From Pandoraea oxalativorans (GTDB taxonomy: Bacteria > Pseudomonadota > Gammaproteobacteria > Burkholderiales > Burkholderiaceae): a stretch of DNA of 64,000 nt. The position numbers and the translations under genes were made by a program. Location of the stretch: positions 4,092,001 through 4,156,000 of the forward strand of contig NZ_CP011253.3 of NCBI RefSeq assembly GCF_000972785.3. The letters run 5' to 3'. The notes beneath the pieces are model-generated. The model saw only the letters and a program-made list of their open reading frames with translations, searched no databases and had not been told where the DNA came from. Shown one piece after another: positions 2,664 through 19,326 of the stretch. Positions within the stretch are counted from its first letter, which is position 1. Each line of letters opens with the position of its first letter.

Positions 2664-3446
2664 TTACGCCGAACGCGAAATGACCGCTTGCAGGAATTCA
2701 CGCGTACGCGCTTCGCGCGGCGCAGTGAAGATCTGCTCCGGCGAGCCGGCTTCGATGATGCGGCCTTGATCCATCACGACCACCACGTCGGCGACTTCGC
2801 GAGCGAAGCCCATTTCGTGCGTGACGACGAGCATCGTCATCCCGTCGTTCGCGAGCGCCTTCATGACTTGCAGCACTTCGCCGACCAGTTCCGGATCGAG
2901 GGCCGACGTCGGTTCGTCGAACAGCATGACCTGCGGCTGCATGGCGAGTGCGCGGGCAATCGCCACGCGCTGCTTCTGGCCACCCGACAGCGTGCCCGGG
3001 TAGACATCAGCCTTCGCGGCGAGACCCACCTTGGTGAGCAATTCGCGAGCGAGCTTTTCGGCGTCGGCGTGCTTCATACCGCGCAGCTTGCGCGGAGCGA
3101 GCGTCACGTTATCGAGCACTGTCAGATGCGGGAACAGATTGAACGACTGGAACACCATGCCCACTTCCGTGCGCAGATGATTCAGTGCGTTCTCGCCCAT
3201 CATCTTGCCGTGATCGACGAGCTTCTTGCCGACGATCTCGATGGTGCCCTGCTCGGCCGTTTCCAGCCCGTTGCAGCAACGCAGGAACGTGCTCTTGCCC
3301 GAACCGCTCGGGCCGATGACCACGACGACCTGACGCGACTGCACTTCGAAGTCGATGCCCTTGAGCACCTGATGGCTGCCGTAAGCCTTGCCCAGCCCTT
3401 CGATCTTCAGAATCGGGGCGCCGTTGGTTGTCTTCACTTCGCTCAT
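2664..3446 (-). CDS. polar amino-acid ABC transporter, ATP-binding protein (GlnQ/HisP type)
   Basis: Hydrolyses ATP to drive uptake by the adjacent permease and periplasmic binding protein. The 260-residue product has Walker [10 protein letters not shown] near 45-53, Q-loop [11 protein letters not shown], the ABC signature [15 protein letters not shown], Walker [15 protein letters not shown] and the switch His in VVTHEMGFA. This is the typical single-domain form of the polar amino-acid uptake family. Its start codon overlaps the permease stop (ATGA, 3443-3446), which indicates translational coupling. Gene order on the minus strand is binding protein, permease, ATPase, then hutG. The substrate is not identifiable from sequence. 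Confidence 0.93.
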
Positions 3447-4111
3447 TGCACGGCGCCTCCGGCACGCAGGGACTTCTCGGCGCGCTGCAGCAACAGCGTA
3501 GTGACACCGGTCAGAATCAGATAAACAAATGCAATCGCCAGATACACTTCCAGCGATCGATACGACACGCTGATGATCTTCTGACCTTCGTGCATCACGT
3601 CATGAATCGTGAGCAGCGATACAAGGGCGGAGTTCTTGATCAGCGCGATGAATTCGTTGCCCAGCGGCGGGATCATGCGCACCACGGCCTGCGGCAGAAT
3701 CACCGAGCGCATGGCCTGACCGTAAGGCATGCCGAGCGAGCGGGCGGCTTCCATCTGACCGCGCTCGATCGACTGGATGGCGCCACGCACGATTTCCGAG
3801 ACGTAAGCACCGCTATAGATGCCCAGACCCAGCACGCCGCACACAAACGCCGGCAGCAGAATATTGAACTGAGGCAGACCAAAGAACAGGATGAAAAGCT
3901 GCACCAGCAGCGGCGTGCCACGAATGAACGTGACGTAAGCGGTACAGATGCCGTAGCGAATGCGGTTGGCCGGATTGAGTCGGCCCATGCCGACCAGCAA
4001 ACCCAGGACACAGCCGAGGGCCAGGGCACAGGCGGTGACTTCGACGGTCACGAGCGCGCCACGCGCCAGGTCCGTCCAGTTTGCCCACACCGGCGAAAAA
4101 TCGAGTTCCAT
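3443..4111 (-). CDS. polar amino-acid ABC transporter, permease (HisMQ/GlnP type)
   Basis: An inner-membrane permease of 222 residues with about five hydrophobic segments. The cytoplasmic EAA loop that contacts the ATPase is recognisable near [20 protein letters not shown], and [15 protein letters not shown] follows, as is usual for the His/Gln/Arg permease family. Only one permease gene is present, so the channel is probably a homodimer. It overlaps the ATPase gene by four bases and lies 126 bases after the binding-protein gene. Confidence 0.92.
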
Positions 4112-4237
4112 GCGTACTCCGTCAGTTGCTCTACTGCGCTATTGCTTTATTACAGGGGCGGGCGACGTCACTCCAGCAGAAGCGACGGCCAGCCCGCCCG
4201 GTATTGCTCGGGTAATACGTGATGCGAATGACGCGAC

Positions 4238-4975
4238 TTACTTCGAGGTACCGAAGTACTTGGTCACGAGCGCGGCGTACGTGCCGTCAGCACGCACCTT
4301 TTCCAGCGCCTTGTTCATTTCTTCGGTCAGCGCCTTGTCGTCCTTGCGCAGCGCGAAGCCATAACGCTCGACGGTCAGGGTCTTGTCGAGCACCTTGACG
4401 CTCGGGTTGGCCTTGGCGTACAGCAGCGCTGCGGGCTTGCCCGTCACAGCGGCGTCGGCACGGCCGATCTTCATGAGTTCGAACATCTGGTCGTTCTTCT
4501 CGACTTCCACGCGCGCGACCTTCGGGTAGTTTTCCGTCAGGAACTGCACCGACTTCGTACCGACCTGCACCGACACCTTCTTGCCGTTCAGATCGGCCGG
4601 TTCCTTGATGCTGGTGTTGTCGGCCTTGACCATGATGGCCAGACCGCCGGTGTAATACGGGTGCGTGAAGTTCACGGCCTTCAGGCGTTCGTCGGTGATG
4701 TAGATCGCCGAAGCGGCCACGTCGACACGCTTGGACAGCACGGCCGGGATCAGACCCTTGAAGTCGATATCCGTCCACTCGACCTTCTTGCCCATGGCCT
4801 TGCCCAGCGCTTCGACCATTTCGACGTCGAAGCCGGTGCGCTTGCCGTTATCCACATATTCGAACGGGGGGAACGTGGCGTCGGTGGCAACACGCAGCAC
4901 GTCGTCAGCAGCGAAGACCTTGCTCGAGCAGGTGACGGCCAGCGCCATCGTGAACAGGATGTGACGCAATTTCAT
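4238..4975 (-). CDS. periplasmic amino-acid-binding protein of the ABC importer
   Basis: A solute-binding protein of family 3 (245 residues). The N-terminus is a signal peptide: KLRHILF, then the hydrophobic core TMALAVTC and a likely cleavage after VFAA near residue 23. The mature protein opens with DDVLRVATDATFPPFEYVD and continues with GFDVEMVEALGKAM, the usual start of polar amino-acid binding proteins. An ATCTGGTACTCC region with GGAG precedes the ATG on the minus strand. It is the first gene of the importer operon. The IclR gene upstream on the same strand is only 39 bases away, so the two may be co-transcribed. Confidence 0.92.
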   Translation of the reverse strand: MKLRHILFTMALAVTCSSKVFAADDVLRVATDATFPPFEYVDNGKRTGFDVEMVEALGKAMGKKVEWTDIDFKGLIPAVLSKRVDVAASAIYITDERLKAVNFTHPYYTGGLAIMVKADNTSIKEPADLNGKKVSVQVGTKSVQFLTENYPKVARVEVEKNDQMFELMKIGRADAAVTGKPAALLYAKANPSVKVLDKTLTVERYGFALRKDDKALTEEMNKALEKVRADGTYAALVTKYFGTSK

Positions 4976-5014
4976 CTGGTACTCCTTCGTGTAGTCTCGG
5001 TTCGGAAAAACCGG

Positions 5015-5770
5015 TTAAAAGTACTGCAATCGATTCGAAATACGCTCGGCTGCCGCCACCGTGAGGCGGATCAGCTCTTCGTGGCGCTGCGCCACACGCA
5101 CGGCCGGCGCCATCAGCGTGATGGTGCCCTCCAGACGTTCCTTCGCGGCAAAGACCGGGGCCGACACGCCCCAGACGCCGAAATCTACTTCGCTCTCCGA
5201 CACGGCGTACCGTTGCTTGCGAATCTCTTCGATCTGCGCGGCCAGACGCTCCTGCGCGACGGGCTGGCCAGCCAGTTGACGGCCAATCAGATTCTCGCGG
5301 GTTGTCTGGGGCAGGAAGGAGAGCAAGGCCTTGGCCGAGGCGCCATGCACCAGCGGGTGCGCACGGCCTTTTGCAAACGAGCAGCGCAGCGATTGCTCGC
5401 TCTCGTGCATGTCGAGGCAGACGACCTGACCGTTGGCGGCGACGAGCAGACCGACCGTCTCCCCGGTGCGCTGCACGAGGGCGTCGATCTCTTCCCGTGC
5501 CTGAGTCACAAGATGCGAGTTGTGGTCGAAACCCCACGCCAATTGCACGCCGACCGGACCCGGTTCGTAGAGCGCCTCATGGGCGTGCTCTTGTACCAGC
5601 CCCCACTTCTTGAGCGGAACGAGGTGGCGGTAAACCGTAGAGAGCGGCAGGCTCGTTTGCGCGGCGATCTCGCGTGCCGCGATCGGGCGTCCATGACGCG
5701 CTACAGTCACGAGGACTTGCAGTACGCGCTCGGAGACCGAATGAGCTTCGGTGGTGTCCATCGTCTTCAA
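5015..5770 (-). CDS. IclR-family transcriptional regulator next to the amino-acid importer
   Basis: A predicted effector-responsive DNA-binding protein of 251 residues. The winged helix lies near residues 16-70, with recognition region IAAREIAAQTSLPLSTVYRHL. The C-terminal IclR effector domain follows. It is upstream of the importer and hutG on the same strand, so it probably controls that operon and itself. An imperfect inverted repeat (GCATAGGGA / TCCCTTATGC, 5896-5917) lies about 130 bases before its start and may be an operator. The effector is unknown. Confidence 0.88.
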   Translation of the reverse strand: MKTMDTTEAHSVSERVLQVLVTVARHGRPIAAREIAAQTSLPLSTVYRHLVPLKKWGLVQEHAHEALYEPGPVGVQLAWGFDHNSHLVTQAREEIDALVQRTGETVGLLVAANGQVVCLDMHESEQSLRCSFAKGRAHPLVHGASAKALLSFLPQTTRENLIGRQLAGQPVAQERLAAQIEEIRKQRYAVSESEVDFGVWGVSAPVFAAKERLEGTITLMAPAVRVAQRHEELIRLTVAAAERISNRLQYF

Positions 5771-5935
5771 AAACCAAAGAAAGCAAAAAAATCAGCAGGC
5801 TGTGCCGCCGATGACGACATGGGCGCTATCTTGCGATGCAATTCCCAAAGTAAAAAATGTGATTCTCATCGGATGGTAACAAATTGGGAGATTACGCATA
5901 GGGACTTTCCCTTATGCATCGCGGAAGCCCACCAT

Positions 5936-5975
5936 AAAAAAACGCCGAAACCCTTGTTTGACAAGGCATCCGGCG
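5936..5975 (-). terminator. Rho-independent terminator of the CoA-ligase operon
   Basis: Read on the minus strand, a two-part stem (GCGCCGG and CCTTG pairing with CAAGG and CGGCG, loop about TCAAA) is followed by seven Ts (A run at 5936-5942). It lies about 30 bases after the stop of the acyl-CoA ligase gene at 6007 and before the IclR gene. It therefore ends the 6007-10809 operon. Confidence 0.85.
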
Positions 5976-6006
5976 CTTTTAAGCAAAATTTGAATAAAGC
6001 TTCTGA

Positions 6007-7686
6007 TTAGCGACTCCTGGTAGTCATTTGCGAATTCGCGGCGTCCGATAGCCACTCGATGAGAATCGGTTTTTGCACTTTCCCAAGTGCGCTCTTGGGG
6101 AGGTTCTCGAAAATGACGACGCGTCGAGGCAGTTTGAAGCGCGCGATGCGCGCGCCGAGAAAGTCGAGTACGGACGCCTGCGTCGCACCCGCTTGTGGTG
6201 TCGTCACGACCACGGCCACCGGCACTTCACCCCAGCGTTCGTCCGGCACGCCGACGACCGACGCTTCGAGCACGCCCGGGCAATCGACGAGCGCGTTCTC
6301 GATTTCGGCGGGATAGATGTTCTCGCCCCCGGAGATGATCATGTCCTTGCTCCGGCCGACGACTTCGAAGCAACCGTCTTCGCGCAGGCGCGCCAGGTCA
6401 CCGGAGTGGAACCAGCCGTCGTCGAACGACGCGTGATCGGGCGCGCGCCAGTACTCGCGCATCACGTTCGGCGCCCGCACGAGAATTTCACCGACGTCGC
6501 CCGGTGCCACGTCCTGCCCTGCCGGGTCGACCAGACGCACTTCCACGCCGGGACACGCCCGCCCGACCGCGCCGGGGTACGCCTTCGCCTCGCCGAAGCG
6601 CAATGCGATGGACACCGGCCCCGTCTCCGTTGCGCCATACACCTGCCCGAGCGGAATACCGCGCGCGTGGAAGGCGTCGATGGCGGACATCGGCACGACG
6701 CTCGATCCCGCCATGACGCCCCGCAGCGACGAGAGATCGCTCGCGCCCCACGCCGGGTGCGTTTGCACGGCGCGCAGGGTGGCGGGCACCATCAGCGAGA
6801 GCGTCGGACGATGGCGTGCGACATCGGCGAGCCACGCCGCCGGATCGAAGCGCGGATGCAGGGTGACGCTCGCGCCACAGAGCAGCGCGGGCAACGTCTG
6901 AATGCACAGACCGCCGACGTGAAACATCGGCAGCGTCGAAAGAATGTGATCGTCGGCACGCATGTCGTGCGACCACCAGCTCGCTTCGGCATTGGCCAGC
7001 AGCCCGGCCTGCGTATGCAACGCGCCCTTGGGTTCGCCGGTCGTACCGGACGTGTAGGCGAGCAGCACGGGCGCATCGGGTGGCACGTCCGGGTAGTCGA
7101 CCGGCTTGACCGACGGCACGGCAATCAGGCCGTCGATAGGCGCAATGGCCGGCGGCGGCAAATCGGTGATGGTGTCCTGTTCGAGCAGATCGCGAATCTG
7201 ACGTGCGGCGTCGCGATGCGTGGCGTCGAACCACAGCACGCGCACGCCCGCATGACGCACGATGGCGGCCAGTTCCGGCACGGCGAGCCGGAAGTTCAGC
7301 GGCAGAAAAATGGCACCGGCGCGCGCGCAGGCAAAGAGCAGCGCCAGTTGCAATGCGTCGTTCAGACCGAGACAGGCGACGCGGTCGCCCGGCGCAATGC
7401 GCCACGTCTCGCGCAAATGACCACCAACACGCTCGACACGACGCCACAAGGCGGCGTAGTCGGTCGTGACGGCTTCGTCACCGATACCGCAGCGCAGCGC
7501 CAGCCGTTCGGGCGTGGCGCGCGCATGACGGGCAAGCGCTTCTACAAAAGGCGTCAACTTCTTCTCCGTCACAAGAGAGACGGCGAGGCCATCGCCACCT
7601 GGCGAGCTCGCCGATTCGCTGAACCACGGCACTCCGGATGGGCGAAGCGCGCGCTTCGCCCTGGATGACTTATTCGTCGCGCTCAC
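6007..7686 (-). CDS. AMP-forming acyl/aryl-CoA ligase
   Basis: An ANL-superfamily enzyme that adenylates a carboxylic acid and transfers it to CoA. Motifs in order: P-loop LAYTSGTTGEPKGA near residue 210, GATETGP near 355, GWFHSGDLARL near 432, SKDMIISGGENIYPAEIE near 455, and catalytic-Lys region LPKSALGKVQK near the C-terminus. The GTG at 7686 overlaps the upstream dehydrogenase-like gene by 17 bases. A second GTG at 7572 (VTEKKLTPF) gives a more usual N-terminus, and neither has a strong ribosome binding site, so the first 38 residues are uncertain. It is the last gene of a four-gene operon with a ring-cleaving dioxygenase homologue, so an aromatic or heteroaromatic acid is a plausible substrate. 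Confidence 0.88.
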   Translation of the reverse strand: MSATNKSSRAKRALRPSGVPWFSESASSPGGDGLAVSLVTEKKLTPFVEALARHARATPERLALRCGIGDEAVTTDYAALWRRVERVGGHLRETWRIAPGDRVACLGLNDALQLALLFACARAGAIFLPLNFRLAVPELAAIVRHAGVRVLWFDATHRDAARQIRDLLEQDTITDLPPPAIAPIDGLIAVPSVKPVDYPDVPPDAPVLLAYTSGTTGEPKGALHTQAGLLANAEASWWSHDMRADDHILSTLPMFHVGGLCIQTLPALLCGASVTLHPRFDPAAWLADVARHRPTLSLMVPATLRAVQTHPAWGASDLSSLRGVMAGSSVVPMSAIDAFHARGIPLGQVYGATETGPVSIALRFGEAKAYPGAVGRACPGVEVRLVDPAGQDVAPGDVGEILVRAPNVMREYWRAPDHASFDDGWFHSGDLARLREDGCFEVVGRSKDMIISGGENIYPAEIENALVDCPGVLEASVVGVPDERWGEVPVAVVVTTPQAGATQASVLDFLGARIARFKLPRRVVIFENLPKSALGKVQKPILIEWLSDAANSQMTTRSR

Positions 7687-8914
7687 CCGGCTCGTACAAC
7701 GCCTCGCGACCGATGCGGTCGAGGCACAGCTCGGCTGTCCACGGCAACATTAGCGCGCCGCAACGCGAATCGCGATACATGCGTTCGAGCGGCAAGGTCT
7801 TGAGCATCGACTGGCCGCCGCACGTGCGAATCGCGAGACGGCACAACTCGTTGGCATTCTCCATGATCGTGTACTGCGCTGCATACGCGCGCAAGCGCGC
7901 TTCCTTGCCCGGATCGGCCCGGCCGTCCTGCAAGGCCCGCAGGAACAGCGCGCGCGTTTGCTCCAGCATGATGTGCATCTGCGCGACGGCGATCTGCTTG
8001 GTCGGATACATGCGACGCTTGACCGGCGCGCCCATGCCGTCGGCTTCGCCACGCAGGTATTTGACGGTGAAGTCGTACGCCGCCTGCGCGATCCCCATAT
8101 AGGTCGGTGCGAGCGTCATGAACATGTGCGGCCAGCGGCTCGCCGCCTGATAGTAGACGCCGCGCGGCATCAGTTGCAGTTCGTCCGGGACGAACACGTC
8201 CTTGAAGAGCAGCGTACGCGAGACGGTGCCGCGCATACCGAGCGGATCCCAGTCGCCGGTGACGGTCACGCCCGGGGCGTCGCCCGGCACGGCGATGTAG
8301 AACGTGTCCTTCATCGACAGCTCGGGCTTGTCTTCCGTGCACAGCACGCCGTAGTAGTTCGCCGCGCCCGAGAGCGACGCAAAGATCTTGCGGCCGTTGA
8401 TCCTCCAGCCGCCGTCGACCTTCGTCGCCGTGGTGCCGAACGGGGCCTTGCCGGCGGCGGCCGCGCTGCCTTCGGAGAACGGTTGCGCGTAGATCGCACC
8501 ATCCTGAATCACGCGCGCGAAGTGATGCTTGCGATAGCCCGCATGCTCGGTGCGTTGCTCGGGCGTCATGTCGAGATCGTCGGACAGAATGCCCGTCCAC
8601 ATCATCGAGCAGGTGTGCATGTTGAACGTGAGCGCGGTCGCGCCGCAATGGCGGCCCAGCTCGGCGGACACCATCATGTACGTGGCGAAGTCGGCCCCCA
8701 GCCCGCCGTCTTCTTCCGGGATGCACAACTTCAGCAGACCGGCGGCGCGCATGTCGTCGTAGTTCTCGAACGGAAACGACGCTTCGCGGTCCCAGCGCGC
8801 CGCGCGCGGCGCGAGCGACTCGCGGCCGACCTGTTCTGCCAGCGCCAGCAGGCGCCGCTGCTTGTCCGTGAGCGGGAAGTGCTCGCCGACGATCGAGGGA
8901 GGCTGATAGGCCAC
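7670..8914 (-). CDS. acyl-CoA-dehydrogenase-family flavoprotein lacking the usual catalytic Glu
   Basis: A 414-residue protein with the acyl-CoA dehydrogenase fold: N-terminal helical domain, middle beta domain (YAQPFSEGS, NGRKIFASLSGAANYYG) and C-terminal helical domain (CGGQSMLKTLPLERMYRDSR). Where family members carry the catalytic Glu in YEGT or GEGT after the RD.R helix, this protein reads GALMLPWTAEL, with no Glu at that place by my eye alignment. That recalls acyl-CoA-dehydrogenase-fold flavin monooxygenases, which use reduced flavin and O2. A flavin reductase is encoded divergently from the same cluster. Co-operonic with the CoA ligase, alpha/beta hydrolase and NicX-like gene. Fold is confident; reaction is inferred. 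Confidence 0.85.
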   Translation of the reverse strand: MAYQPPSIVGEHFPLTDKQRRLLALAEQVGRESLAPRAARWDREASFPFENYDDMRAAGLLKLCIPEEDGGLGADFATYMMVSAELGRHCGATALTFNMHTCSMMWTGILSDDLDMTPEQRTEHAGYRKHHFARVIQDGAIYAQPFSEGSAAAAGKAPFGTTATKVDGGWRINGRKIFASLSGAANYYGVLCTEDKPELSMKDTFYIAVPGDAPGVTVTGDWDPLGMRGTVSRTLLFKDVFVPDELQLMPRGVYYQAASRWPHMFMTLAPTYMGIAQAAYDFTVKYLRGEADGMGAPVKRRMYPTKQIAVAQMHIMLEQTRALFLRALQDGRADPGKEARLRAYAAQYTIMENANELCRLAIRTCGGQSMLKTLPLERMYRDSRCGALMLPWTAELCLDRIGREALYEPGERDE

Positions 8915-8935
8915 GGTTGTCTCCTGATGTTTGTT

Positions 8936-9763
8936 CTAGAGCGTTGCGAGGAAGGTGCGCACCTCGGCGTCGAAGGCGGCCGGGTGTGTCAGATTCATGA
9001 GGTGGCCTGCGCCGGGCAGGCAGACGTAGCGCGCGTCGGGAATCGACTCGGCCATGCGTGCCATCACTTTCGGCGGCGCGTTGGTGTCGTGTTCGCCCGC
9101 GATCAGCAACACCGGCACATTCAGACGCGCCAGTGCCGCGCGCTGCTCGAAGCCGACGAGCGCCTGCAACGCGGCGCGATAGGCCGGTGGCGTGAGCGCG
9201 CCCATGGCGTCGACGGCCAGTGCGTGCGCGCTCGCGCGCGTCACGTCATCAGGCTCGCCGAGCATGCCCGGTATGATCGCTTCGGCCATCTCGCGCAGGG
9301 TCTTGCCCGCGTCGAGCGGCGCTGTGCGCTGACGCACGAATTCGCGCTGGAAGTCGCCGTCCGGTTTGCCGAAGGCCGGTGACGTGCCACACAGCACGAG
9401 GGCGGCGACGTCGCGGGTCGCAGGTGCGCCGCGCGCCATCAACTCCTGCACCACCATGCCGCCCATGCTGTGTCCGACGAGGACGAAGCGTGGCGCGTCC
9501 GATGCCTCCGACGTCGAGCGCAACGTATCGAGCAACGTGCGAAGGCTATCGGCGAGCGCCGCCATCGTCGGCTCGGCAGGCATGGCGCTCTCGCCATAGC
9601 CCGGCATGTCCCACGCCACGACGTGGTAACCCGCAGCGACAAACGTGTCGAACTGCGCAGGCCACACGTGCCGGTTGCCGCCGATGCCGTGCAGCAGCAC
9701 GAGCGTGAGCGGACCGTCGCCAGCCTCCCGGTAGGCAGGCGCGGCCATCGTGGGCGGCGTCAT
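8936..9763 (-). CDS. alpha/beta-fold hydrolase in the NicX-like cluster
   Basis: A 275-residue hydrolase. It has oxyanion-hole HGIGGN near residue 28, nucleophile elbow GHSMGG near 100, acid AGEHDTNAPP and catalytic His in GAGHLMN near the C-terminus. The start at 9763 is chosen because its ATG overlaps the stop of the NicX-like gene (ATGA, 9760-9763); the longer upstream reading is Arg-rich and unlikely. In nicotinate degradation the ring-cleavage product N-formylmaleamate is deformylated by an alpha/beta hydrolase (NicD), so a downstream hydrolase role fits. Enol-lactonase-like or thioesterase activity cannot be excluded. Confidence 0.85.
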   Translation of the reverse strand: MTPPTMAAPAYREAGDGPLTLVLLHGIGGNRHVWPAQFDTFVAAGYHVVAWDMPGYGESAMPAEPTMAALADSLRTLLDTLRSTSEASDAPRFVLVGHSMGGMVVQELMARGAPATRDVAALVLCGTSPAFGKPDGDFQREFVRQRTAPLDAGKTLREMAEAIIPGMLGEPDDVTRASAHALAVDAMGALTPPAYRAALQALVGFEQRAALARLNVPVLLIAGEHDTNAPPKVMARMAESIPDARYVCLPGAGHLMNLTHPAAFDAEVRTFLATL

Positions 9764-10809
9764 GAGGCGAACTCGCCTTGCAGTTGCCCGTCGCGCACGA
9801 CGACGTCGCCGTCGAGGGCGATCGTGCATTTACGCAGCGGCAGGTCGAAATGGCCCAGCGTATGGCGTCCCGCGACCTCGTTGGCCCCCGTCGAATAAAG
9901 GAAATTGCCTGCGAAGGCACGCTGCTCCGTGCCGTTGCAATCGCGCTTGTCGTAGCAGGCGAGTGCCTCCCAGCGGGCGCGCGGGTTCAGGCCGAAGCCG
10001 ACGTGCGACACGGCGTACGCCTCGCGGTCGCCCCACGCGGCGAAGTAATCGCGCATGAGGTCGACGTCCACGCCCTCGCCGTCGATAGCCACGACATAGT
10101 CGTCCTCGACGGTGAGCGCGATGCGATCGCGCAAGTATTGTTTGAAGGTGAGATTGATGTCCCCCGGCGCGAGCACGAGCTGGCCGTTGACGCTATGCGC
10201 AGCAGGGAACGCCAGCGCGAGACCGCCGGGCCAATGCGCGACCTGCCCCGGTTTGGCGCACCAGCCCCAGACGCCCCCCACACGCGCGTCGCGAAGTCCG
10301 ATGCGCAAATCGGTACCGGCAGCGGACGTCACATGCATTTGCGCTGCACCGCGCAAACGCTTGATCGCAGCGCGCACTTTCGGCTCCAGCGCCGGGTCGG
10401 TGGCGCAGCGTTCCAGAATTTCGGGATGTTCGTTGGACACCATCAGCACGCGCGCACCGCCGCCCAGAATCTCGGGCAGTTCGGGCGCATGTAACAGGCC
10501 TTCGACGGTGCAGTCGACGACGAGCGTCGCCGCCTTGAGGGCGGCCACGACAGGGGCGAGTTGCCCCAGCGCGTCGCTTGCCCCGGTCGAGCGCACCGGC
10601 ACCGGCGCACTGACACGCGCACTGGGCACGACCAGCCGGAACGGCCTTGCGCCAAGCGCCTCGGCGGCCAACTGCGCCAATTCCACATTGACAGGCCGGG
10701 ATTGCGTTTCAGCTACAATCGCCACCACATCACCGGGTCGTATGTCGCAGCGCCGCAAGGTCTCGGCAAATACGTCGATCCACTTATGCTCGATTCGCTC
10801 GATCAGCAT
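9760..10809 (-). CDS. NicX-like 2,5-dihydroxypyridine 5,6-dioxygenase homologue
   Basis: A 349-residue protein of the aminopeptidase-T-like fold that includes NicX, the Fe(II) extradiol-type dioxygenase that opens 2,5-dihydroxypyridine. From memory of the NicX sequence, the C-terminal half agrees closely: PGDINLTFKQYLRDRI, the YAVSHVGFGLNPRARW block, GNFLYSTGAN and HFDLPLRKCTIALD. The metal-ligand candidates are His and Asp residues in these blocks. It is the first gene of the operon and divergent from a flavin reductase. The window contains no nicF (maleamate amidase) or nicE (maleate isomerase), and it adds a CoA ligase and an ACAD-like gene, so the true substrate may differ from 2,5-dihydroxypyridine. 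Confidence 0.82.
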   Translation of the reverse strand: MLIERIEHKWIDVFAETLRRCDIRPGDVVAIVAETQSRPVNVELAQLAAEALGARPFRLVVPSARVSAPVPVRSTGASDALGQLAPVVAALKAATLVVDCTVEGLLHAPELPEILGGGARVLMVSNEHPEILERCATDPALEPKVRAAIKRLRGAAQMHVTSAAGTDLRIGLRDARVGGVWGWCAKPGQVAHWPGGLALAFPAAHSVNGQLVLAPGDINLTFKQYLRDRIALTVEDDYVVAIDGEGVDVDLMRDYFAAWGDREAYAVSHVGFGLNPRARWEALACYDKRDCNGTEQRAFAGNFLYSTGANEVAGRHTLGHFDLPLRKCTIALDGDVVVRDGQLQGEFAS

Positions 10810-10897
10810 ATCGTCTCCTGAGCGTCCGACCCTTGCGCCCTTGCCGGGCAGCGTTGGCCATCACGCGTCTTGTCGATCTGTTGTTCGTGCCATAGTA

Positions 10898-10911
10898 TAT
10901 GAATATTCATA
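10898..10911. promoter_or_regulatory. 14-bp perfect palindrome in the divergent promoter (candidate MarR operator)
   Basis: TATGAATATTCATA is perfectly self-complementary. It lies in the 145-base gap between the divergent starts of the NicX-like gene (10809) and the flavin reductase (10955). MarR-family dimers usually bind short AT-rich palindromes, and a MarR gene lies one gene away. The site is placed to control both directions. The assignment is by position and symmetry only. Confidence 0.6.
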
Positions 10912-10954
10912 CAAATCAACCCGATCAAATTAGCCGGACGGGAGTGCAGGGAAA

Positions 10955-11473
10955 GTGAACGCCAATCGCGCTTCGGCGCCTGATTTCGACAGCGCAGCTT
11001 TTCGCAGTGCGCTCGGTCAATTTGCGACCGGTGTCACCGTGATCACCACGCGGGCCGACGACGGCTCGCTCATCGGCATCACCGCCAGTTCGTTCAATTC
11101 GGTGTCGCTCACGCCGCCGCTCATCCTGTGGAGTCTTGCCACGCGTGCGGGCAGCATGCCCGTGTTCCGCGAAAACACGCATTACGCCGTGAACGTGCTC
11201 GCTGCCGATCAGCTCGACCTGTGCAAGCGCTTCGCGACGATGAAGGGCGACCGGTTCGCGGGCGTGCCGTACACGCTGTCGGCGTCGGGCACACCGGTGC
11301 TGGACGGTGCACTTGCCTGGTTCGAATGTCACAACCGCAGCCGTTACGACGAAGGCGATCACGTCATCTTCGTGGGTGAGGTGGAGCGTTGTGGCGTGCA
11401 TACGGAGGTTGCAGAGCGCATGCCGCTGATCTTCCACGCGGGCGGCTTCCACAAACCGCAGTCGCTGGGCTGA
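10955..11473 (+). CDS. NAD(P)H:flavin reductase (HpaC/RutF-like) of a probable two-component monooxygenase
   Basis: A 172-residue FMN-binding split-barrel protein: FRSALGQFATGVTVITTR near residue 15, ASSFNSVSLTPPLILWSL near 50, FRENTHYAVNVLA near 75, and C-terminal FHAGGFHKP. Members supply reduced flavin to a partner monooxygenase. The obvious partner candidate is the ACAD-like protein at 7670-8914, encoded divergently. An ATG at 10955 is taken as the start; the GGGAAAG just before it is a weak ribosome binding site. The MarR gene follows after eight bases, so the two are co-transcribed. Confidence 0.88.
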   Translation: MNANRASAPDFDSAAFRSALGQFATGVTVITTRADDGSLIGITASSFNSVSLTPPLILWSLATRAGSMPVFRENTHYAVNVLAADQLDLCKRFATMKGDRFAGVPYTLSASGTPVLDGALAWFECHNRSRYDEGDHVIFVGEVERCGVHTEVAERMPLIFHAGGFHKPQSLG

Positions 11474-11481
11474 GTCACCTC

Positions 11482-11961
11482 ATGTCCGTCGCGCGGCCGG
11501 TTACCTCGGCGACCCCGGCTTCCTCCGACACGCCGTTCGTCGACGACTATCTGCTGTATCTGCTCGCCCGTGCGAGCGCGCTCGTGTCGGACGAGTTTCA
11601 CCGCGAAGTGGCCGCCGCCGGGCTCGGCGTGCTGGAGTGGCGCGTGCTGGCCACGTTGTCCGACGGGCAGGCGCGCATCATCAATCAGTTGGCGGACATC
11701 GTGCTCGCCAAGCAGCCGACCGTCACCAAGGTCGTCGACCGGCTCGAAGCGTCGGGCGACGTCGTGCGGGGCGAGAGCGCCACTGACCGTCGGCAATCGC
11801 TGGTCTCGCTCACCGAGGCGGGCATCGCCCACGTCACCCCGTTGCTGGCAGGTGCGCGACGTCATGAGGCGAGTGTGCTCGCACGATTCGGTGAGCCGCA
11901 GTCGGCACAACTCAAGGAAGCGCTGCGCGAGCTTATCGATCAGATGACGGATCGACGCTAG
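11482..11961 (+). CDS. MarR-family transcriptional regulator
   Basis: A 159-residue winged-helix regulator. The HTH region is VLEWRVLATLSDGQARIINQLADIVLAKQ followed by TVTKVVDRLEASG, and the wing is GESATDRRQSLVSLTEAG, all typical of MarR proteins. The frame is open upstream into the flavin reductase gene, but the ATG at 11482, eight bases after that gene's stop, gives the normal length. MarR proteins in aromatic degradation clusters (NicR, HpaR, BadR) are usually repressors relieved by the substrate or its CoA thioester. By context it should control the divergent catabolic operon. Confidence 0.88.
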   Translation: MSVARPVTSATPASSDTPFVDDYLLYLLARASALVSDEFHREVAAAGLGVLEWRVLATLSDGQARIINQLADIVLAKQPTVTKVVDRLEASGDVVRGESATDRRQSLVSLTEAGIAHVTPLLAGARRHEASVLARFGEPQSAQLKEALRELIDQMTDRR

Positions 11962-12264
11962 TCGCCCTCCTCGCTTACGCACTCCCCTCGCACTCCCCCC
12001 CTCCCCCCTTCCCCCTCCCCGTACCCCGCCAACGAATTCGGGTGAACTCGCATCGAATTCGATCAAATTCGAAAAACTTAAAAGAATCCACCGCGAAATC
12101 GGCGTAAATGTATGCCTGACTTCAATTCCAGCGGCCTGAGCATTCGAATACGCAAGCACCTGCGGCGAAGAATTTCCTACACTATCCGGGATTTCTTCCT
12201 CCACAAAACGCGCCTCACCAAGCGCTTGCGTATGAACGTTTCGAACGCTTCGGAAGCACCGAAT
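11962..12264 (+). promoter_or_regulatory. Leader and promoter region of the kynurenine operon
   Basis: About 300 bases without a supported gene. It starts with a C/T-rich stretch (about 11980-12020) and then has several AATTCG words (about 12041-12070) in an AT-rich segment that probably holds the promoter. kyn operons are often controlled by an Lrp/AsnC-type activator (KynR), and such repeats could be its sites, but no regulator gene of that family is in the window. Reading extends in frame with kynB from 12112, so a longer KynB cannot be fully excluded. Confidence 0.45.
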
Positions 12265-12927
12265 ATGGCGGCCAACTCCGCAGATGTGGCCACTGCGACC
12301 GAGCGTCGCGTGTGGGACATCAGCGCGCCCTTGTCCGCAGACACGCCCGTATGGCCCGGCGACACGCCGCTGACCGAGCAAGCCGTGTGGCAGATCGGCC
12401 CCGGCTGCCCGGTCAACGTCGGCCGCATCACGCTCTCGCCACACACTGGCGCGCACGCCGATGCCCCGCGTCATTACGACGACGCCGGCGTTTGCATCGG
12501 CGAAGTCGACCTTCAGACGTATCTGGGGCCTTGCCGGGTGATCCATTGCATTGGCGCGTCGCCGGTCGTCACGCCGGAGATGGTCGCGCCGCACCTCGCC
12601 AACGTTCCGCCGCGCGTGCTTTTGCGCACTTACACGCAAGCGCCGGTCTCGCACTGGGACAGCGAGTTTTGCGCCGTTGCGCCGGAGACGATCGATTTGC
12701 TGGCGTCGCATGGCGTGAAGCTCGTGGGCATCGATACGCCCTCGCTCGACCCGCAGCAGAGCAAAACGATGGACGCCCATCACCGCATTCGTGCGCATCG
12801 CATGGCGATCCTCGAAGGGCTGGTGCTCGACGCCATCTCACCGGCCGATTACGAACTCATCGCGCTGCCGCTGAAGTTCATGCGGCTCGATGCGAGTCCG
12901 GTGCGCGCAGTGCTTCGCGCACTCTGA
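12265..12927 (+). CDS. kynB: kynurenine formamidase KynB
   Basis: Hydrolyses N-formyl-L-kynurenine to L-kynurenine and formate, step 2 of tryptophan degradation. The Zn-binding motif of the bacterial cyclase family, [14 protein letters not shown], lies near residues 62-75, after the characteristic start [19 protein letters not shown]. Other family blocks are [19 protein letters not shown] and the C-terminal [17 protein letters not shown]. The ATG at 12265 is chosen because GGAAG lies eight bases upstream and the 220-residue length is close to the usual 210. ATG 12232 (231 residues) is the alternative. First gene of kynB-kynU-kynA. Confidence 0.92.
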
Positions 12928-12994
12928 GCATCGCGGCGCCCACGGTTTTCTTTTTTCATTCAACGCTTTTACTCATTACTCCACTACGCAAACC

Positions 12995-14248
12995 ATGACG
13001 TCTTCTCGCAACGATTGTCTGGCCCTCGACGCGGCCGATGCGCTTGCCCCGCTGCGCGCACAGTTCGACCTGCCGCCCAATGTGATCTATCTCGACGGCA
13101 ACTCGTTGGGCGCGCGTCCGATCGCCTCGGCCAAGCGCGCGCAGGAAGTGATTACCGGCGAATGGGGCGTGGGCCTAATCCGCAGTTGGAACGAAGCCGA
13201 CTGGTTCGCGCTGCCGCGCACGCTCGGCGACAACCTTGCTCCGATCATCGGTGCAGGCAAGGGCGAAGTCGTCGTGACGGACACCACGTCGAGCAACCTC
13301 TTCAAAGTGATGGCCGCCGCGCTCGACGCGCAGCGTGAGCGTTCGCCCAAGCGCCGCGTCGTGATTTCCGAGCGCAGCAACTTCCCGACCGATCTGTACA
13401 TCGTGCAAGGGCTGACGCGTCTGCTCGACGACGGTTACTCGCTGCGTCTGATCGACTCGCCGGACGAACTGCAAAGCGCGCTGGGCGACGACGTCGCCGT
13501 GGTGCTGCTCACGCACGTGAACTACCGCACGGGTGCGATGTACGACATGAAGGCGCGCACGGCCGAGATTCATGCGAGCGGCGCGCTGGCGGTGTGGGAT
13601 CTGTGCCACTCGGCCGGGGCTGTGCCGGTCGATCTGAACGGCGCAGACGCCGATTACGCCGTGGGTTGCACGTATAAGTACCTGAACGGCGGCCCGGGCT
13701 CACCGGCGTTCGTGTGGGTCAACAAGAAGCATCAGGACACGTTCTGGCAGCCGCTGTCGGGCTGGTGGGGCCACCGCACGCCGTTCGCGATGACGCCGGA
13801 GTACACGCCGGACGACGGCATCGGCCGTTACCTGTGCGGCACGCAGCCGATCGTCTCGCTGTCGCTGGTGCAGTGTGGTCTGGACATTTTTGCGCAAACG
13901 TCGATGGACGCATTGCGTCGCAAGTCGCTCGCGTTGACCGACCTGTTCATCAAGCTGGTCGAAGCGCGTTGCGCCGATTTCCCGCTGACGCTGGTGACGC
14001 CGCGCGATCACGCGTCGCGTGGTTCGCAGGTGAGCTTCGAGCATCCGGAAGGTTTCGCAGTGATTCAGGCACTGATTGCGCGCGGCGTGATCGGCGACTA
14101 CCGTGAGCCGCGCATCATGCGTTTCGGCATGACGCCGCTGTACACGAGCTTTGCCGACGTGTGGGATTCGGTCGAGATTCTGCGCGACGTGCTGAGCACC
14201 GGTTCGTGGGACAAGCCCGAGTTCCGTCGCCGTGGCGCGGTGACCTGA
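12995..14248 (+). CDS. kynU: kynureninase KynU
   Basis: A PLP enzyme that cleaves L-kynurenine to anthranilate and alanine. The 417-residue product has the family opening [15 protein letters not shown]-contact segments [30 protein letters not shown], and the cofactor Lys in [16 protein letters not shown] near residue 228. The C-terminal substrate-side block [20 protein letters not shown] is also present. ATG 12995 gives the usual length; the frame is open further upstream into the kynB 3' end. It lies 67 bases after kynB and 16 before kynA, consistent with one transcript. Confidence 0.97.
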
Positions 14249-14264: not shown

Positions 14265-15215
14265 ATGACCAATCCGTCCCCCAAGACTACGACGCCGACG
14301 TCCGACTCGCCCACGCAGGGCGGGTGCCCGTTCGGGCATGGAGGCGAATCGACTGGCGGCGCGTCCGCCACGTCCGCCAGTACGTCTGCCAACGCCACGC
14401 AGTGGCACGACGCACAGCTCGATTTCTCGAAGAGCATGAGCTATGGCGACTACCTGTCGCTCGATCCGATTCTGAATGCCCAGCATCCCCGCTCGACGGA
14501 CCACAACGAGATGCTGTTCATCATTCAGCATCAGACGAGTGAACTGTGGATGAAGCTCGCACTGTACGAGTTGCAGGCGGCGCGAACGGCGGTTCACAAC
14601 GACGAACTGCCGCCAGCGTTCAAGATGCTGGCGCGTGTGTCGCGCATTCTCGAGCAGTTGGTGCAGGCGTGGAGCGTGCTGGCGACGATGACGCCATCGG
14701 AGTATTCGTCGATGCGTCCGTCGCTGGGCAGCTCGTCGGGCTTCCAGTCGTATCAGTACCGCATTCTGGAGTTCATGCTGGGCAACAAGAATGCGGCAAT
14801 GCTGGCGCCGCATTCGCATCGCCCGGACCTGTATCAGCAGGTCGAAGCGGCACTCAACGCACCGTCGTTCTATGACGAAGTGGTGCGCCTGCTGGCGCGC
14901 CGCGATTTTGCGATTGCACCGGAGCGTCTCGAGCGCGACTGGACGAAGCCGACACCGCACGACACGACCGTCGAAGCCGCGTGGCTTGAGGTGTATCGCA
15001 ATCCGTCGCAACACTGGGAGCTATACGAGATGGCCGAAGAACTGGTCGATCTCGAGGACGCTTTCCGCCAGTGGCGCTTCCGTCACGTGACGACGGTCGA
15101 GCGCATCATCGGCTTCAAGCAAGGGACCGGCGGCACGAATGGCGCGCCCTATCTGCGCAAGATGCTCGACGTGGTGTTGTTCCCTGAGCTCTGGCACGTG
15201 CGGACGTTGCTGTGA
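14265..15215 (+). CDS. kynA: tryptophan 2,3-dioxygenase KynA with a Cys-Pro N-terminal extension
   Basis: A haem enzyme that opens the indole ring of L-tryptophan to N-formylkynurenine, first step of the pathway, although encoded last. In 316 residues the family core begins at [16 protein letters not shown]. The haem-ligand region [19 protein letters not shown] lies near residue 80, and [11 protein letters not shown], which contacts substrate and active site, is near the C-terminus. About 45 residues precede the core. They are low-complexity Ser/Thr/Gly and carry CPFGH near residue 21, which resembles a haem-regulatory Cys-Pro motif. GAGGAG lies upstream of the ATG. Confidence 0.97.
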
Positions 15216-15508: not shown

Positions 15509-16357
15509 TTAAGCGTTTCCGCTGAGACGAGCGGCCAACTGTTTCAATCGAGGTCCGATCTCCTCCCGAAACACAGCATCCGGAATCGAAGAAGACGGCC
15601 CGCTGCAACTGATCGCGAGCCAGCGGTTTTGCCGGATGTCGCGAAGCGGCACGGCGACGGCGTTGACGCCTTCATGCCACTCGCGAAACGAGTAGCAAAG
15701 CCCCTCCCGCTTGTACGATTCGATCCCTTTGTCGACGCCCGATTGCAACGCGTCCCAGCCGACGTTGCGCAGCGCGGCGGGATTGGCGTCGTAGGCATCG
15801 TGCAGATCCGAGAGCATCGTCTCGCGCTCTGTCGGCGTCATGGCCGCGAGGTAGACGCGCCCCATCGAACTGGTCAGCATCGACAGACGGGAGCCTGCCG
15901 TCAGACCCAGCGTGAGATGCGCGGAATCGCTGCGAATCGTCTCCAGATACATCATATCCACGCCCTCGCGACAGCCCAGCGAGATCGAACATCCCATTTC
16001 TTTGGCAAGCGCGCGCATATGCGGACGCGCCAGCGTCAGCATATCCGTGCCGTTCAGGAAGGCGTAGCCGAGGGCCAGCACGCCCGCGTCCAGCGCATAT
16101 TTGCCGAGGTCAACGTCGTAGCGCAGGTAGCCGAGTTCGGTGAGGGTGTAGGCCAGACGGCTCACCGTCGCTTTCGGCAAGCCCGTGCGCGCGGCGAAAT
16201 CGCGGTTGCCGAGCAGCATGTCGTCCGGTCCGAAAGCGCGCAGCAGTTCGAGGCCTCGCGCCAGCGCCGTGACGAACTTGCGCTCGTCGTGCGACGGCGA
16301 TACGCCATGAGCCGGCGCACCGGTAAGGGCAGACAGGGACGTTTTGATCACAGCCAT
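15509..16357 (-). CDS. IclR-family regulator divergent from gcdH
   Basis: A 282-residue regulator. The winged helix lies near residues 27-85 ([15 protein letters not shown], then [25 protein letters not shown]). The effector domain follows, with [25 protein letters not shown] and [29 protein letters not shown] segments typical of the PcaR/PobR branch. It is divergent from gcdH, with a perfect IclR-type palindrome between them, so it very probably controls glutaryl-CoA dehydrogenase and itself. The ligand may be glutarate, glutaryl-CoA or another aromatic or dicarboxylic acid. Confidence 0.9.
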
Positions 16358-16504
16358 CGCGCACTCCGCATCGACTTCGCAGTCACATTGAACATACCGG
16401 GCAAGCAGGGTCGGACATGATCAAACAGATTCGGCCAGCGCATGCACTGGCCGTTTGCCCGGGAAAAAATTTTAGTGTTAAACTAACTTCGATTTCAGAA
16501 CATT

Positions 16505-16521
16505 GTTCCGCATTGCGGAAC
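16505..16521. promoter_or_regulatory. IclR-type operator upstream of gcdH
   Basis: GTTCCGCATTGCGGAAC is a palindrome with perfect 8-base arms around one central base. It matches the general form of IclR-family operators (TTCCGC-type half sites facing inward). It lies in the 194-base divergent gap, 30 bases before the gcdH ATG and 147 before the IclR start, a position suited to repressing gcdH and autoregulation. Confidence 0.82.
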
Positions 16522-16551
16522 TTTCGTCAAGTTGATTCGAGGAGATGGGTC

Positions 16552-17745
16552 ATGGCAGGCAATGCACAGTTTCACTGGGAAGATCCGCTGTTGCTCGACG
16601 CGCAGCTCACCACCGACGAGCGCATGATTCGCGACGCGGCCGCCGCATATGCGAACGACAAGCTCGCGCCGCGTGTGCTCGAAGCGTTCCGTCACGAGCG
16701 CACCGACGCATCGATCTTTCGCGAAATGGGCGAGATCGGCCTGCTCGGCCCGACGATCCCCGAACAATACGGCGGCCCCGGTCTGAACTATGTGGCCTAC
16801 GGCCTGATTGCCCGCGAAGTCGAGCGCGTGGATTCGGGCTATCGCTCGATGATGTCCGTGCAGTCGTCGCTGGTCATGGTCCCGATCTATGAATTCGGTA
16901 GCGAAGCGCAAAAGCAGAAGTACCTGCCGAAGCTCGCCAGCGGCGAATGGATCGGCTGCTTCGGTCTGACCGAGCCGAACCACGGTTCGGACCCGGCTGG
17001 CATGACCACGCGGGCCAAGAAGGTCGCCGGCGGTTATGAGCTGAGCGGCAGCAAGATGTGGATCACGAATTCGCCCATCGCCGACGTCTTCGTCGTCTGG
17101 GGCAAGCTCGCCGACGAAAACGGCGAGGAGAAGATCCGCGGCTTCATTCTGGAAAAAGACTGGAAGGGTCTGTCGGCCCCCGCGATTCATGGCAAGGTCG
17201 GCCTGCGTGCGTCCGTCACCGGCGAGATCGTGATGGACCAGGTCTTCGTGCCGGAAGAGAACCTGATGCCCGGCGTCTCCGGTCTGAAGGGACCGTTCAC
17301 GTGCCTGAACTCGGCCCGCTACGGCATCGCCTGGGGTGCACTGGGCGCCGCTGAATCCTGCTGGCACATGGCGCGTCAGTACGTACTCGATCGTCAGCAG
17401 TTCGGTCGCCCGCTCGCCGCCAATCAGTTGATTCAGAAGAAGCTGGCCGACATGCAGACGGAAATCACGCTGGGCCTGCAAGGCTGTCTGCGTCTGGGTC
17501 GCATGAAGGACGAAGGCACGGCGGCGGTCGAAATCACCTCGATCATGAAGCGCAACTCGTGCGGCAAGGCACTCGACGTGGCGCGTCTGGCGCGTGACAT
17601 GCTCGGCGGCAACGGCATCTCGGACGAATTCGGCATCGCCCGCCATCTCGTGAACCTCGAAGTGGTCAACACCTACGAAGGCACGCACGACATCCACGCC
17701 CTGATTCTGGGTCGCGCGCAAACGGGTATTCAGGCGTTCTTCTGA
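16552..17745 (+). CDS. gcdH: glutaryl-CoA dehydrogenase GcdH
   Basis: An FAD enzyme that oxidises and decarboxylates glutaryl-CoA to crotonyl-CoA, in the degradation of lysine, tryptophan and glutarate. The 397-residue product carries the catalytic Glu in [18 protein letters not shown] near residue 373, the GCDH-specific [16 protein letters not shown] block, [14 protein letters not shown] near 140 and the [14 protein letters not shown] flavin-contact region. GGAGATGG precedes ATG 16552, which gives the family length; the frame is open upstream but noncoding-like. It is regulated by the divergent IclR protein. In this neighbourhood it could be linked to the kynurenine genes. Confidence 0.97.
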
Positions 17746-17879
17746 TTCCCGAACGCGCAGGGAACAGGAAGCGCGAGAAGTGCGGGGGACTCGCGGTCCC
17801 TCTTCGGGAGCCGATGACGTATCGGTCTCCCGGGTCCGACCGGTTCGCCCCCCGTCTGCGCCCCGCTTTTGTGTCGCTG

Positions 17880-17955
17880 TTGTTGGGTACGCGTCGTTTC
17901 TCGAGCCGCATGTCGCGGGCCGTCAATCCAACGAGGGACGGCGCGTACCCAACAA
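17880..17955. repeat. Long inverted repeat downstream of gcdH
   Basis: TTGTTGGGTACGCG (17880-17893) is perfectly complementary to 17942-17955, giving a 14-bp stem around 48 bases. It lies immediately before, and shares two bases with, the bidirectional terminator at 17954-17987. No gene is supported anywhere in 17746-18047. Confidence 0.7.
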
Positions 17956-17987
17956 AAAATGCCAGCTCATGCGAGCTGGCATTTTTT
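17954..17987. terminator. Bidirectional terminator between gcdH and the peroxiredoxin gene
   Basis: A 15-bp perfect stem, AAAAAATGCCAGCTC pairing with 17973-17987, with loop ATGC and terminal A and T runs on both sides. It serves the plus-strand gcdH transcript and the minus-strand peroxiredoxin transcript that converge here. Confidence 0.92.
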
Positions 17988-18047
17988 ATGTCTTGCTTCG
18001 GCATGAGCGGCGCATCGTCGTGCAACCGCCCATCCATCACCCATCGA

Positions 18048-18686
18048 TTACTTGTTCGGCTGCGGCGTGAGACGCAGATACGGACGCACGGCCTTGTAGC
18101 CCTTCGGGAATTTTTCCTTCAGCACTGCCTCGTCCTTGAGCGACGGTACGATCACCACGTCTTCGCCATCCTTCCAGTTGCCCGGCGTAGCGACCGAGTA
18201 GTTGTCGGTCAGTTGCAGCGAATCGATGACGCGCAGAATTTCGTCGAAGTTGCGACCCGTGCTTGCCGGGTACGTAATGATCAGGCGCACCTTCTTCTTC
18301 GGATCGATCACGAACAGCGAGCGCACCGTCACGGTTTCGCTGGCGTTCGGGTGAATCATGTCGTACAGCTGCGAAACCTTGCGATCGCCGTCCGCCAGGA
18401 TCGGGAAGTTCACCGTAGTGTTCTGCGTTTCGTTGATGTCGCTGATCCAGCCTTTGTGCGACTCCGCATCGTCCACCGACAAGGCGATGGCTTTCACGTT
18501 ACGTTTTTCGAACTCGCCCTTGAGTTTTGCAGTCAGACCCAGTTCGGTCGTGCACACCGGCGTGTAGTCGGCCGGATGCGAGAAAAGGACACCCCAGCCA
18601 TCGCCGAGGAATTCGTGAAACTTGATCGGGCCGATCGATGAATCCTGCTCGAAGTCGGGAGCGATATCACCCAAACGCAATGTCAT
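18048..18686 (-). CDS. 1-Cys peroxiredoxin (Prx6/AhpC-TSA family)
   Basis: A cytoplasmic thiol peroxidase that reduces H2O2 and alkyl hydroperoxides. The peroxidatic Cys lies in SHPADYTPVCTTELG near residue 45, the signature of the Prx6 group. The 212-residue length and C-terminal PKGYKAVRPYLRLTPQP also match that group. No OxyR site could be identified. It has its own promoter region (18687-18900), which includes a CTAAGCTTAG palindrome at 18738-18747, and it converges on gcdH at a shared terminator. Confidence 0.95.
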   Translation of the reverse strand: MTLRLGDIAPDFEQDSSIGPIKFHEFLGDGWGVLFSHPADYTPVCTTELGLTAKLKGEFEKRNVKAIALSVDDAESHKGWISDINETQNTTVNFPILADGDRKVSQLYDMIHPNASETVTVRSLFVIDPKKKVRLIITYPASTGRNFDEILRVIDSLQLTDNYSVATPGNWKDGEDVVIVPSLKDEAVLKEKFPKGYKAVRPYLRLTPQPNK

Positions 18687-18933
18687 TTACGGTCTCCTTG
18701 AGAACCTTTCACTCAGTGGGATCAAGACTAAAGGATGCTAAGCTTAGTCAGAACGAATAAAAAATTTGTTCCAAATGAATTCTGGAAATATACCGCGGCG
18801 AGTCTGTTGTTTTCTGGCAACGACGCGTTGAAAGCGGTACGATAACCCCAATGTCAGTCGCACACCCTCCGCATTTTCCTCCCAGAAACGGGTAACGACT
18901 ATGTCGCAAGTGCATACCAACAAGGAGAAGTTC

Positions 18934-19209: not shown

Positions 19210-19326
19210 GCTCGCTGAATACGCGCAGTCAGCGCGATCGGCATAAGTCACTTCCTCGCCTACTCTGCCAAAGGCGGAGCCTGCCTGACCGGTGCGACGG
19301 GTCGGGTGGGCCGCCCCGTCCAGCCC

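Follow-up and report, generated by a model that had tools for sequence, protein, structure and literature searches.

What does a compact block of six genes in Pandoraea oxalativorans do, and where does its product go? The block lies in a 64,000-nucleotide stretch of contig NZ_CP011253.3 (assembly GCF_000972785.3, positions 4,092,001 to 4,156,000 of the forward strand), hereafter the window, to which the coordinates below refer. A sequence-only reading had proposed a new route for a (hetero)aromatic acid, with four minus-strand genes facing two on the plus strand, and the six genes and their strands are indeed as it described:

6007..7686, minus strand: LIG, an AMP-dependent CoA ligase (PF00501/PF13193) whose true start is probably below 7686
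7670..8914, minus strand: ACAD, a flavoprotein of acyl-CoA-dehydrogenase fold without the catalytic Glu, the proposed oxygenase of a two-component hydroxylase
8936..9763, minus strand: HYD, an alpha/beta hydrolase, proposed to act on an amide or C-C bond after ring opening
9760..10809, minus strand: DIOX, a NicX-family Fe(II) ring-cleavage dioxygenase (match to NicX, 7cn3, E 2.6e-57)
10955..11473, plus strand: FRED, a flavin reductase (PF01613, 6.7e-42)
11482..11961, plus strand: MARR, a MarR-family regulator (PF12802/PF01047)

Of the new findings, the firmest is that this block is linked to anthranilate genes. We hypothesise, with slightly more confidence than doubt, that the block is a catabolic funnel, hydroxylating and opening a ring and yielding anthranilate or anthraniloyl-CoA for the 2-aminobenzoyl-CoA pathway.

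Co-occurrence with an anthranilate sink

As sink genes we followed a 2-aminobenzoyl-CoA monooxygenase/reductase-like fusion and a benzoate-type (2-aminobenzoate-like) CoA ligase. In an order draw of 349 genomes, where DIOX-type genes were judged by score and alignment start, such a gene was present in 16 and had ACAD adjoining in 14. All 14 of these ACAD-type genomes carry both sink genes, against a background of 64 genomes with the fusion (threshold 1e-100), 54 with the benzoate-type ligase (1e-110) and 52 with both. A Fisher test gave 5e-13, a value that ignores kinship and overstates independence, the 14 genomes falling in four families only (7 in family f192). In a phylum draw ACAD was found in 20 of 397 genomes, 15 of them new relative to the order draw, and the fusion was present in all 14 new ACAD-type genomes from other classes; its background across 112 phylum genomes was 14, three ACAD-type genomes included. 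Overall, 28 of 29 ACAD-type genomes hold the fusion, compared with 64/349 and 14/112. Twelve of the 14 other-class genomes were fetched, and DIOX lay on the stretch in 11.

At 1e-40, kynureninase (KynU) was not found in 6 of 26 ACAD-type genomes (G370, G616, G531, G589, G424 and G934), nor tryptophan 2,3-dioxygenase (TDO) in G370, G531, G589 and G934, drafts that are 95-100% complete. G370, G531 and G589 thus hold the block and both sink genes with no detectable KynU or TDO. That no kynurenine-route feed is seen in G370, G531, G589 and G934 fits a block that is another source of anthranilate, although G934 weighs less since DIOX was not seen there.

The opposite direction of flux has to be considered, as the sequence-only reading named anthranilate as one possible substrate. 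LIG would then form anthraniloyl-CoA, ACAD and FRED would hydroxylate it, DIOX would open the ring and HYD would hydrolyse the product. The kynurenine operon adjoining the block makes anthranilate, and cupin, FAH-family and C-N hydrolase genes accompanying a variant block in Aminobacter and family f259 could be a 5-hydroxyanthranilate branch. However, the 14 order-draw ACAD-type genomes already own a dedicated sink, and a redundant route would not be expected to co-occur so strictly with a second one. LIG is, moreover, missing in several versions of the block and far from the anthranilate-CoA ligase 4wv3 (143 bits, versus 333 for its best solved relatives 8weu/8wev, the latter a feruloyl-CoA synthetase). 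Because of the dedicated sink, and because G370, G531 and G589 show no detectable KynU or TDO, anthranilate is more likely product than substrate, and we regard its consumption by the block as unlikely.

Conservation and neighbourhood of the block

Scanning genome contigs with DIOX returned 413 relatives, of which the best 80 loci were kept, a sample weighted to Burkholderiales and with several short contigs. Among these best 80 of 413, HYD accompanies DIOX in 78, ACAD in 77, MARR in 72, LIG in 70 and FRED in 67. The gene set that the earlier note had suggested seeking in other genomes is therefore a conserved block, its gene order maintained far beyond chance, and common to many soil, plant-associated and freshwater bacteria. 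Cupriavidus necator A5-1 (L066) is one of its carriers. The closest named relatives, 99% identical in DIOX, are Pandoraea species. We found no description of this gene set in the open-access literature searched, which misses most subscription journals.

Around the block, the window holds the following features:

2664..4975, minus strand: an amino-acid-type ABC transporter (ATPase, permease and family-3 binding protein), a possible importer; the binding protein is SBP_bac_3, the other two are read from sequence
10898..10911, no strand: proposed MarR operator TATGAATATTCATA, a perfect palindrome in the divergent promoter
12235..12927, plus strand: kynB arylformamidase (TIGR03035, 318 bits against a cut-off of 223; start chosen in the analysis)
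12986..14248, plus strand: kynU kynureninase (TIGR01814, 356 bits against 246; start chosen in the analysis)
14265..15215, plus strand: TDO (TIGR03036, 437 bits against 391)

Within the block three starts are uncertain, those of LIG, HYD and MARR. The 559-residue LIG frame is probably too long, since its relatives, called by script, have 425-543 residues; if GTG at 7686 is the start, LIG and ACAD overlap by 17 bases. HYD could begin earlier, at 9829, and with the starts chosen overlaps DIOX by 4 bases. For MARR, ATG 11482 is more likely than TTG 11389. Behind the kyn operon, at 16417-17745, lies a further acyl-CoA dehydrogenase (c7), which we take to resemble glutaryl-CoA dehydrogenase; no NCBIfam model passed 1e-100 on it, and its relatives are also close to sink genes in loci L133, L134 and L162.

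In 27/80 loci, from Pandoraea, Cupriavidus and one further member of the Burkholderiaceae, the block lies next to the kynB-kynU-TDO operon, so that its position in the window, already pointed out from the sequence, reflects a real tie to kyn genes and anthranilate. In Limnohabitans and other Comamonadaceae the block is instead found beside a benzoate-type ligase (23/80) and a Rid-family gene (26/80), with enoyl-CoA hydratase, ACAD, short-chain dehydrogenase/reductase (SDR) and MarR genes as further neighbours and, at the stretch edges of 9/80 loci, a fusion of FAD monooxygenase and old yellow enzyme (OYE). This set matches the 2-aminobenzoyl-CoA pathway as reviewed (PMC4539516, PMC6221969). 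In family f256, from another class, fusion, hydratase and SDR directly adjoin HYD-ACAD-LIG, and DIOX follows in L154, L155 and L157 and was not seen on the L158 stretch. Shinella has TDO and a benzoate-CoA-ligase-family gene downstream of a block variant. P. oxalativorans itself possesses the pathway pair of benzoate-type ligase and monooxygenase/OYE fusion, in a 2-aminobenzoyl-CoA-type cluster outside the block (L127, G000:C1:3788000-3807000, 3097-11275) together with Rid-family, thioesterase-like, ACAD, hydratase and SDR genes. Script thresholds were applied to 110 fetched loci that span at least 8 kb and have DIOX at no less than 50% identity, a few genomes being represented twice; a kyn gene was present in 29, a sink gene in 38 and either in 66. 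Some of the other 44 have the sink just beyond the fetched stretch, as in G582, where it is ~10-18 kb away from the block.

Such proximity would also suit a block that salvages by-products formed by the 2-aminobenzoyl-CoA pathway, for example 5-hydroxyanthraniloyl-CoA or 5-hydroxyanthranilate. Co-occurrence with the sink monooxygenase is near-strict (28/29 genomes), and the two adjoin each other in f256 and f263 loci. Yet the block has its own hydroxylase and is accompanied by acid or amino-acid importer-like genes, and its neighbours in Pandoraea and Cupriavidus are kyn rather than sink genes; salvage is in our view distinctly improbable.

The core of the promoter palindrome, ATGAANNTTCAT, is present in 61 of 64 intergenic regions between DIOX and a divergent FRED or MARR, out of 62 matches in total across 994 kb of the same loci. 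Across the whole 6.5 Mb genome the palindrome site is unique at up to 1 mismatch. It is thus a candidate operator for MARR.

Several versions depart from the common plan. LIG was not on the stretch in L103, L106, L107, L129, L130, L131, L132, L135 and the glutamine-synthetase type, FRED was not on some stretches, and unrelated FAD monooxygenases stand in place of ACAD in L131, L132 and L135. The variant with a glutamine-synthetase-like enzyme (L138, L139, L142, L143 and L160-L163) has, where read, an SRPBCC-hydrolase fusion, TetR and an APC permease replacing LIG and MarR, and its Aminobacter and f259 versions include the extra cupin, FAH-family and C-N hydrolase genes. In L136 a single 739-residue frame (6950-9169) fuses HYD and ACAD, which agrees with joint action; about 6 kb from that block a second, distant NicX-like gene (16051-19501, 35%) adjoins a gentisate/5-aminosalicylate-dioxygenase-like cupin and a monooxygenase/OYE fusion. 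Octopine-dehydrogenase-family and 3-hydroxyacyl-CoA dehydrogenase genes lie between LIG and DIOX in L154 (11889-13967). A lone ACAD relative (62%) is found on a cyanobacterial plasmid record of Dolichospermum (L141, 11995-13242), with no DIOX annotated on the stretch, and may reflect transfer or assembly. Finally, a contig titled Akkermansia muciniphila (L068) carries a block and neighbours of Comamonadaceae type, the title probably being a binning error.

Enzymes of the block

DIOX itself had no Pfam match and was identified through its match to NicX, its only solved relative, and through PF26233 on DIOX relatives. The iron of NicX is held by His265, Ser302, His318 and Asp320, and Glu177 contacts N1 and O1 of dihydroxypyridine (PMC7910607). 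The two proteins are homologous along their whole length, and the four ligands, Arg293 and His105 are kept in 105/105 DIOX-type proteins, His189 in 101 and Leu104 in 92. The assignment to the NicX type thus stands with an intact iron site, and this conservation answers the worry that the protein might be an aminopeptidase. In contrast to NicX, Glu177 is kept in 0/105 (Val in 75), a Glu-Gly insertion precedes the Leu-His pair in 104/105, and the partner genes differ. A tree of 45 rows split 40 DIOX-type from 5 NicX-like proteins with support of 100/99, the latter on long branches.

Companions of nicC, nicE and nicF type are absent among the six genes. The earlier statement that nicF and nicE are missing is therefore correct for this locus, but not genome-wide: a nic-type cluster elsewhere in the same genome (L083, G000:C1:3738500-3757500, 6201-13356) encodes FAD-binding, maleate-isomerase-type (PF17645), hydrolase, NicX, isochorismatase, molybdopterin and MarR proteins. 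Its NicX-like protein is 40% identical to DIOX and matches 7cn3 at E 3.5e-122. Because a closer NicX exists in the same genome and Glu177 has been lost throughout, DIOX most likely acts on a substrate other than 2,5-dihydroxypyridine. A pyridine pathway (for nicotinate, picolinate or hydroxypicolinate) in which NicX has diverged would account for the homology and the shared iron site, but is set against the lost Glu177, the resident nic-type NicX (411 bits to 7cn3, versus 198 for DIOX) and the lack, among the six genes, of an isochorismatase-type amidase and a maleate-isomerase-type gene; we consider it very unlikely. Relatives of DIOX are currently filed as peptidase M29 or 2,5-dihydroxypyridine dioxygenase. 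A Rhodococcus that came from a reactor degrading quinoline also has a NicX-like gene, carried on a plasmid and accompanied by Rieske and molybdenum hydroxylase genes (L140, 9737-10750).

The region of the catalytic Glu in ACAD, a position that presumably corresponds to Glu376 of medium-chain acyl-CoA dehydrogenase, reads R-C-G-x-L-M-L-P in 35/35 aligned sequences, bearing out the description of a Glu-less protein. Its structure model (pLDDT 86.7) has the acyl-CoA dehydrogenase fold by structure matches, the first Foldseek match being 5z8t, a 'Flavin-containing monooxygenase' (28% identity), with dehydrogenases scoring alike. The two-component flavin hydroxylase suggested earlier is supported by two features of group D monooxygenases, this fold and a partner flavin reductase (67/80 loci). 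Since unrelated FAD monooxygenases replace ACAD in three loci, it is probably a hydroxylase. A precedent is the ACAD-fold enzyme IacA, which hydroxylates indole-3-acetate with the help of a flavin reductase (PMC7225977). Relatives of ACAD are currently filed as acyl-CoA or AidB-like dehydrogenases.

Could LIG and ACAD instead process a fatty or other aliphatic acid, with DIOX and HYD unrelated to them? Both proteins score to fatty-acid and dehydrogenase families, and in Polaromonas loci LIG has fad-like genes as neighbours on the opposite strand. Against this, ACAD has no catalytic Glu, has a flavin reductase partner and is replaced by FAD monooxygenases in three loci, while the iron site of DIOX is intact, and we give such a metabolism hardly any credence.

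HYD has an intact Ser-Asp-His set (each of S99, D226 and H254 is conserved in 97% or more of 85 rows), as expected of the hydrolase it was called. ANL motifs are kept in 75 LIG rows. The CoA ligase of the earlier scheme is thus confirmed, but it is unlikely to catalyse an obligatory first step, because several versions of the block have no LIG on the stretch.

Proposed route and its counterparts

Our inferences on the order of the reactions, the substrate, the direction of flux, the CoA step and the repression are as follows. ACAD, with reduced flavin from FRED, would hydroxylate the ring; DIOX would cleave the C-C bond adjoining the hydroxylated carbon; and HYD would hydrolyse the resulting acyl or formyl amide, or a C-C bond. 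LIG would convert a non-benzoate acid to its CoA thioester, acting on the substrate as it enters (e.g. indole-3-acetate) or on the acid freed by HYD, and MARR would repress the divergent pair through the palindrome. The earlier scheme is thus partly supported, being right in outline, with anthranilate better placed at the end than at the start.

The leading candidate substrates are indoles that derive from tryptophan, such as indole-3-acetate or indole itself, or some other benzo-fused N-heterocycle. The nic route runs from 2,5-dihydroxypyridine through N-formylmaleamate to maleamate; copying it, indole would pass from 3-hydroxyindole through N-formylanthranilate to anthranilate. Indole would leave LIG without explanation. 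Indole-3-acetate or a similar acid would give LIG a use and fit the beta-oxidation-type genes that adjoin it in Polaromonas and f256 loci. Nearby importer-like genes for acids or amino acids are of family-3 ABC, Bug, branched-chain, MFS or APC type (names read from sequence except for SBP_bac_3 and annotated APC permeases), family-3 binding-protein relatives being present in 18/80 loci, all Pandoraea; they speak for a charged substrate more than for free indole. Only tentatively do we suggest an as yet undescribed aerobic route from an indole-3-acetate-like acid to anthranilate or anthraniloyl-CoA by CoA activation, C2 hydroxylation by an ACAD-fold oxygenase resembling IacA, C2-C3 cleavage by the NicX-type Fe(II) dioxygenase and hydrolysis. 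Such a route would be spread over Burkholderiales and other proteobacterial classes, and DIOX would then be, to our knowledge, the first NicX-family enzyme outside pyridine catabolism.

Besides the narrow family range of the order draw, a number of observations weigh against a funnel into anthranilate. ACAD scores near true dehydrogenases and does not have the residues that we take to be expected in group D oxygenases. Compared by BLAST at 1e-5, HYD does not match the hydrolase in the nic-type cluster. Two genomes with an FAD monooxygenase for ACAD (G593, G471) have neither sink gene; G1031 has ACAD and no fusion at 1e-100; G934 shows HYD-ACAD-LIG and the fusion, with DIOX not on the stretch; and the DIOX frame of G424 contains a stop. 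Neither kyn nor sink genes are on the stretch in 44 of the 110 fetched loci, some of them short contigs, and scans of the genome and fetched loci found no palindrome at kyn or sink genes. Moreover, the NCBIfam name of the fusion is salicylyl-CoA 5-hydroxylase; we call it a 2-aminobenzoyl-CoA monooxygenase/reductase from its two-domain make-up, Rid-family neighbour and kyn links.

Among known pathways, quinaldine degradation in Arthrobacter uses a hydroxylase, a ring-cleaving oxygenase and an amidase to reach anthranilate, on which a CoA ligase then acts; this resembles the scheme proposed for the block, but its dioxygenase is cofactor-free with an alpha/beta-hydrolase fold. Compared with the iac locus for indole-3-acetate, the six genes are without the SDR (IacE) and the IacCD oxygenase, a Rieske enzyme, and have a NicX-type dioxygenase and a CoA ligase. 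Shared with iac (IacA/IacG/IacR) are an ACAD-fold oxygenase, a separate flavin reductase and MarR, whereas iac ends in catechol and the block probably in anthranilate (PMC7225977, PMC9613470). The iad locus, from indole-3-acetate to anthranilate, shares the proposed product, an acyl-CoA synthase gene (IadF) and MarR control (PMC12633357, PMC9613470), but the block has no counterparts among its six genes to the Rieske IadCDE, thiolase IadG and dehydrogenases IadH/IadJ described for it (PMC12633357). The iif/ind locus, from indole to anthranilate, likewise has a two-component flavin oxygenase, and in Cupriavidus SHE it is followed by a cluster of 2-aminobenzoyl-CoA genes (PMC6221969). However, IifC is of group E and not ACAD-fold (PMC7225977), and ring opening is by the cofactor-independent oxygenase IifA (PMC6221969), where the block would use an Fe(II) NicX-type enzyme. 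No SDR of the IifB kind is among the six block genes; the rest of the genome was not searched for iif homologues.

The block merits a name of its own, being an operon with a clear sink. If the proposed function is true, many entries filed under peptidase M29 or 2,5-dihydroxypyridine dioxygenase, and under acyl-CoA or AidB-like dehydrogenase, would be reassigned to one aromatic pathway, and the NicX family would extend beyond pyridines. Should the substrate be an auxin or indole, plant- and water-associated bacteria would have another means of signal removal.

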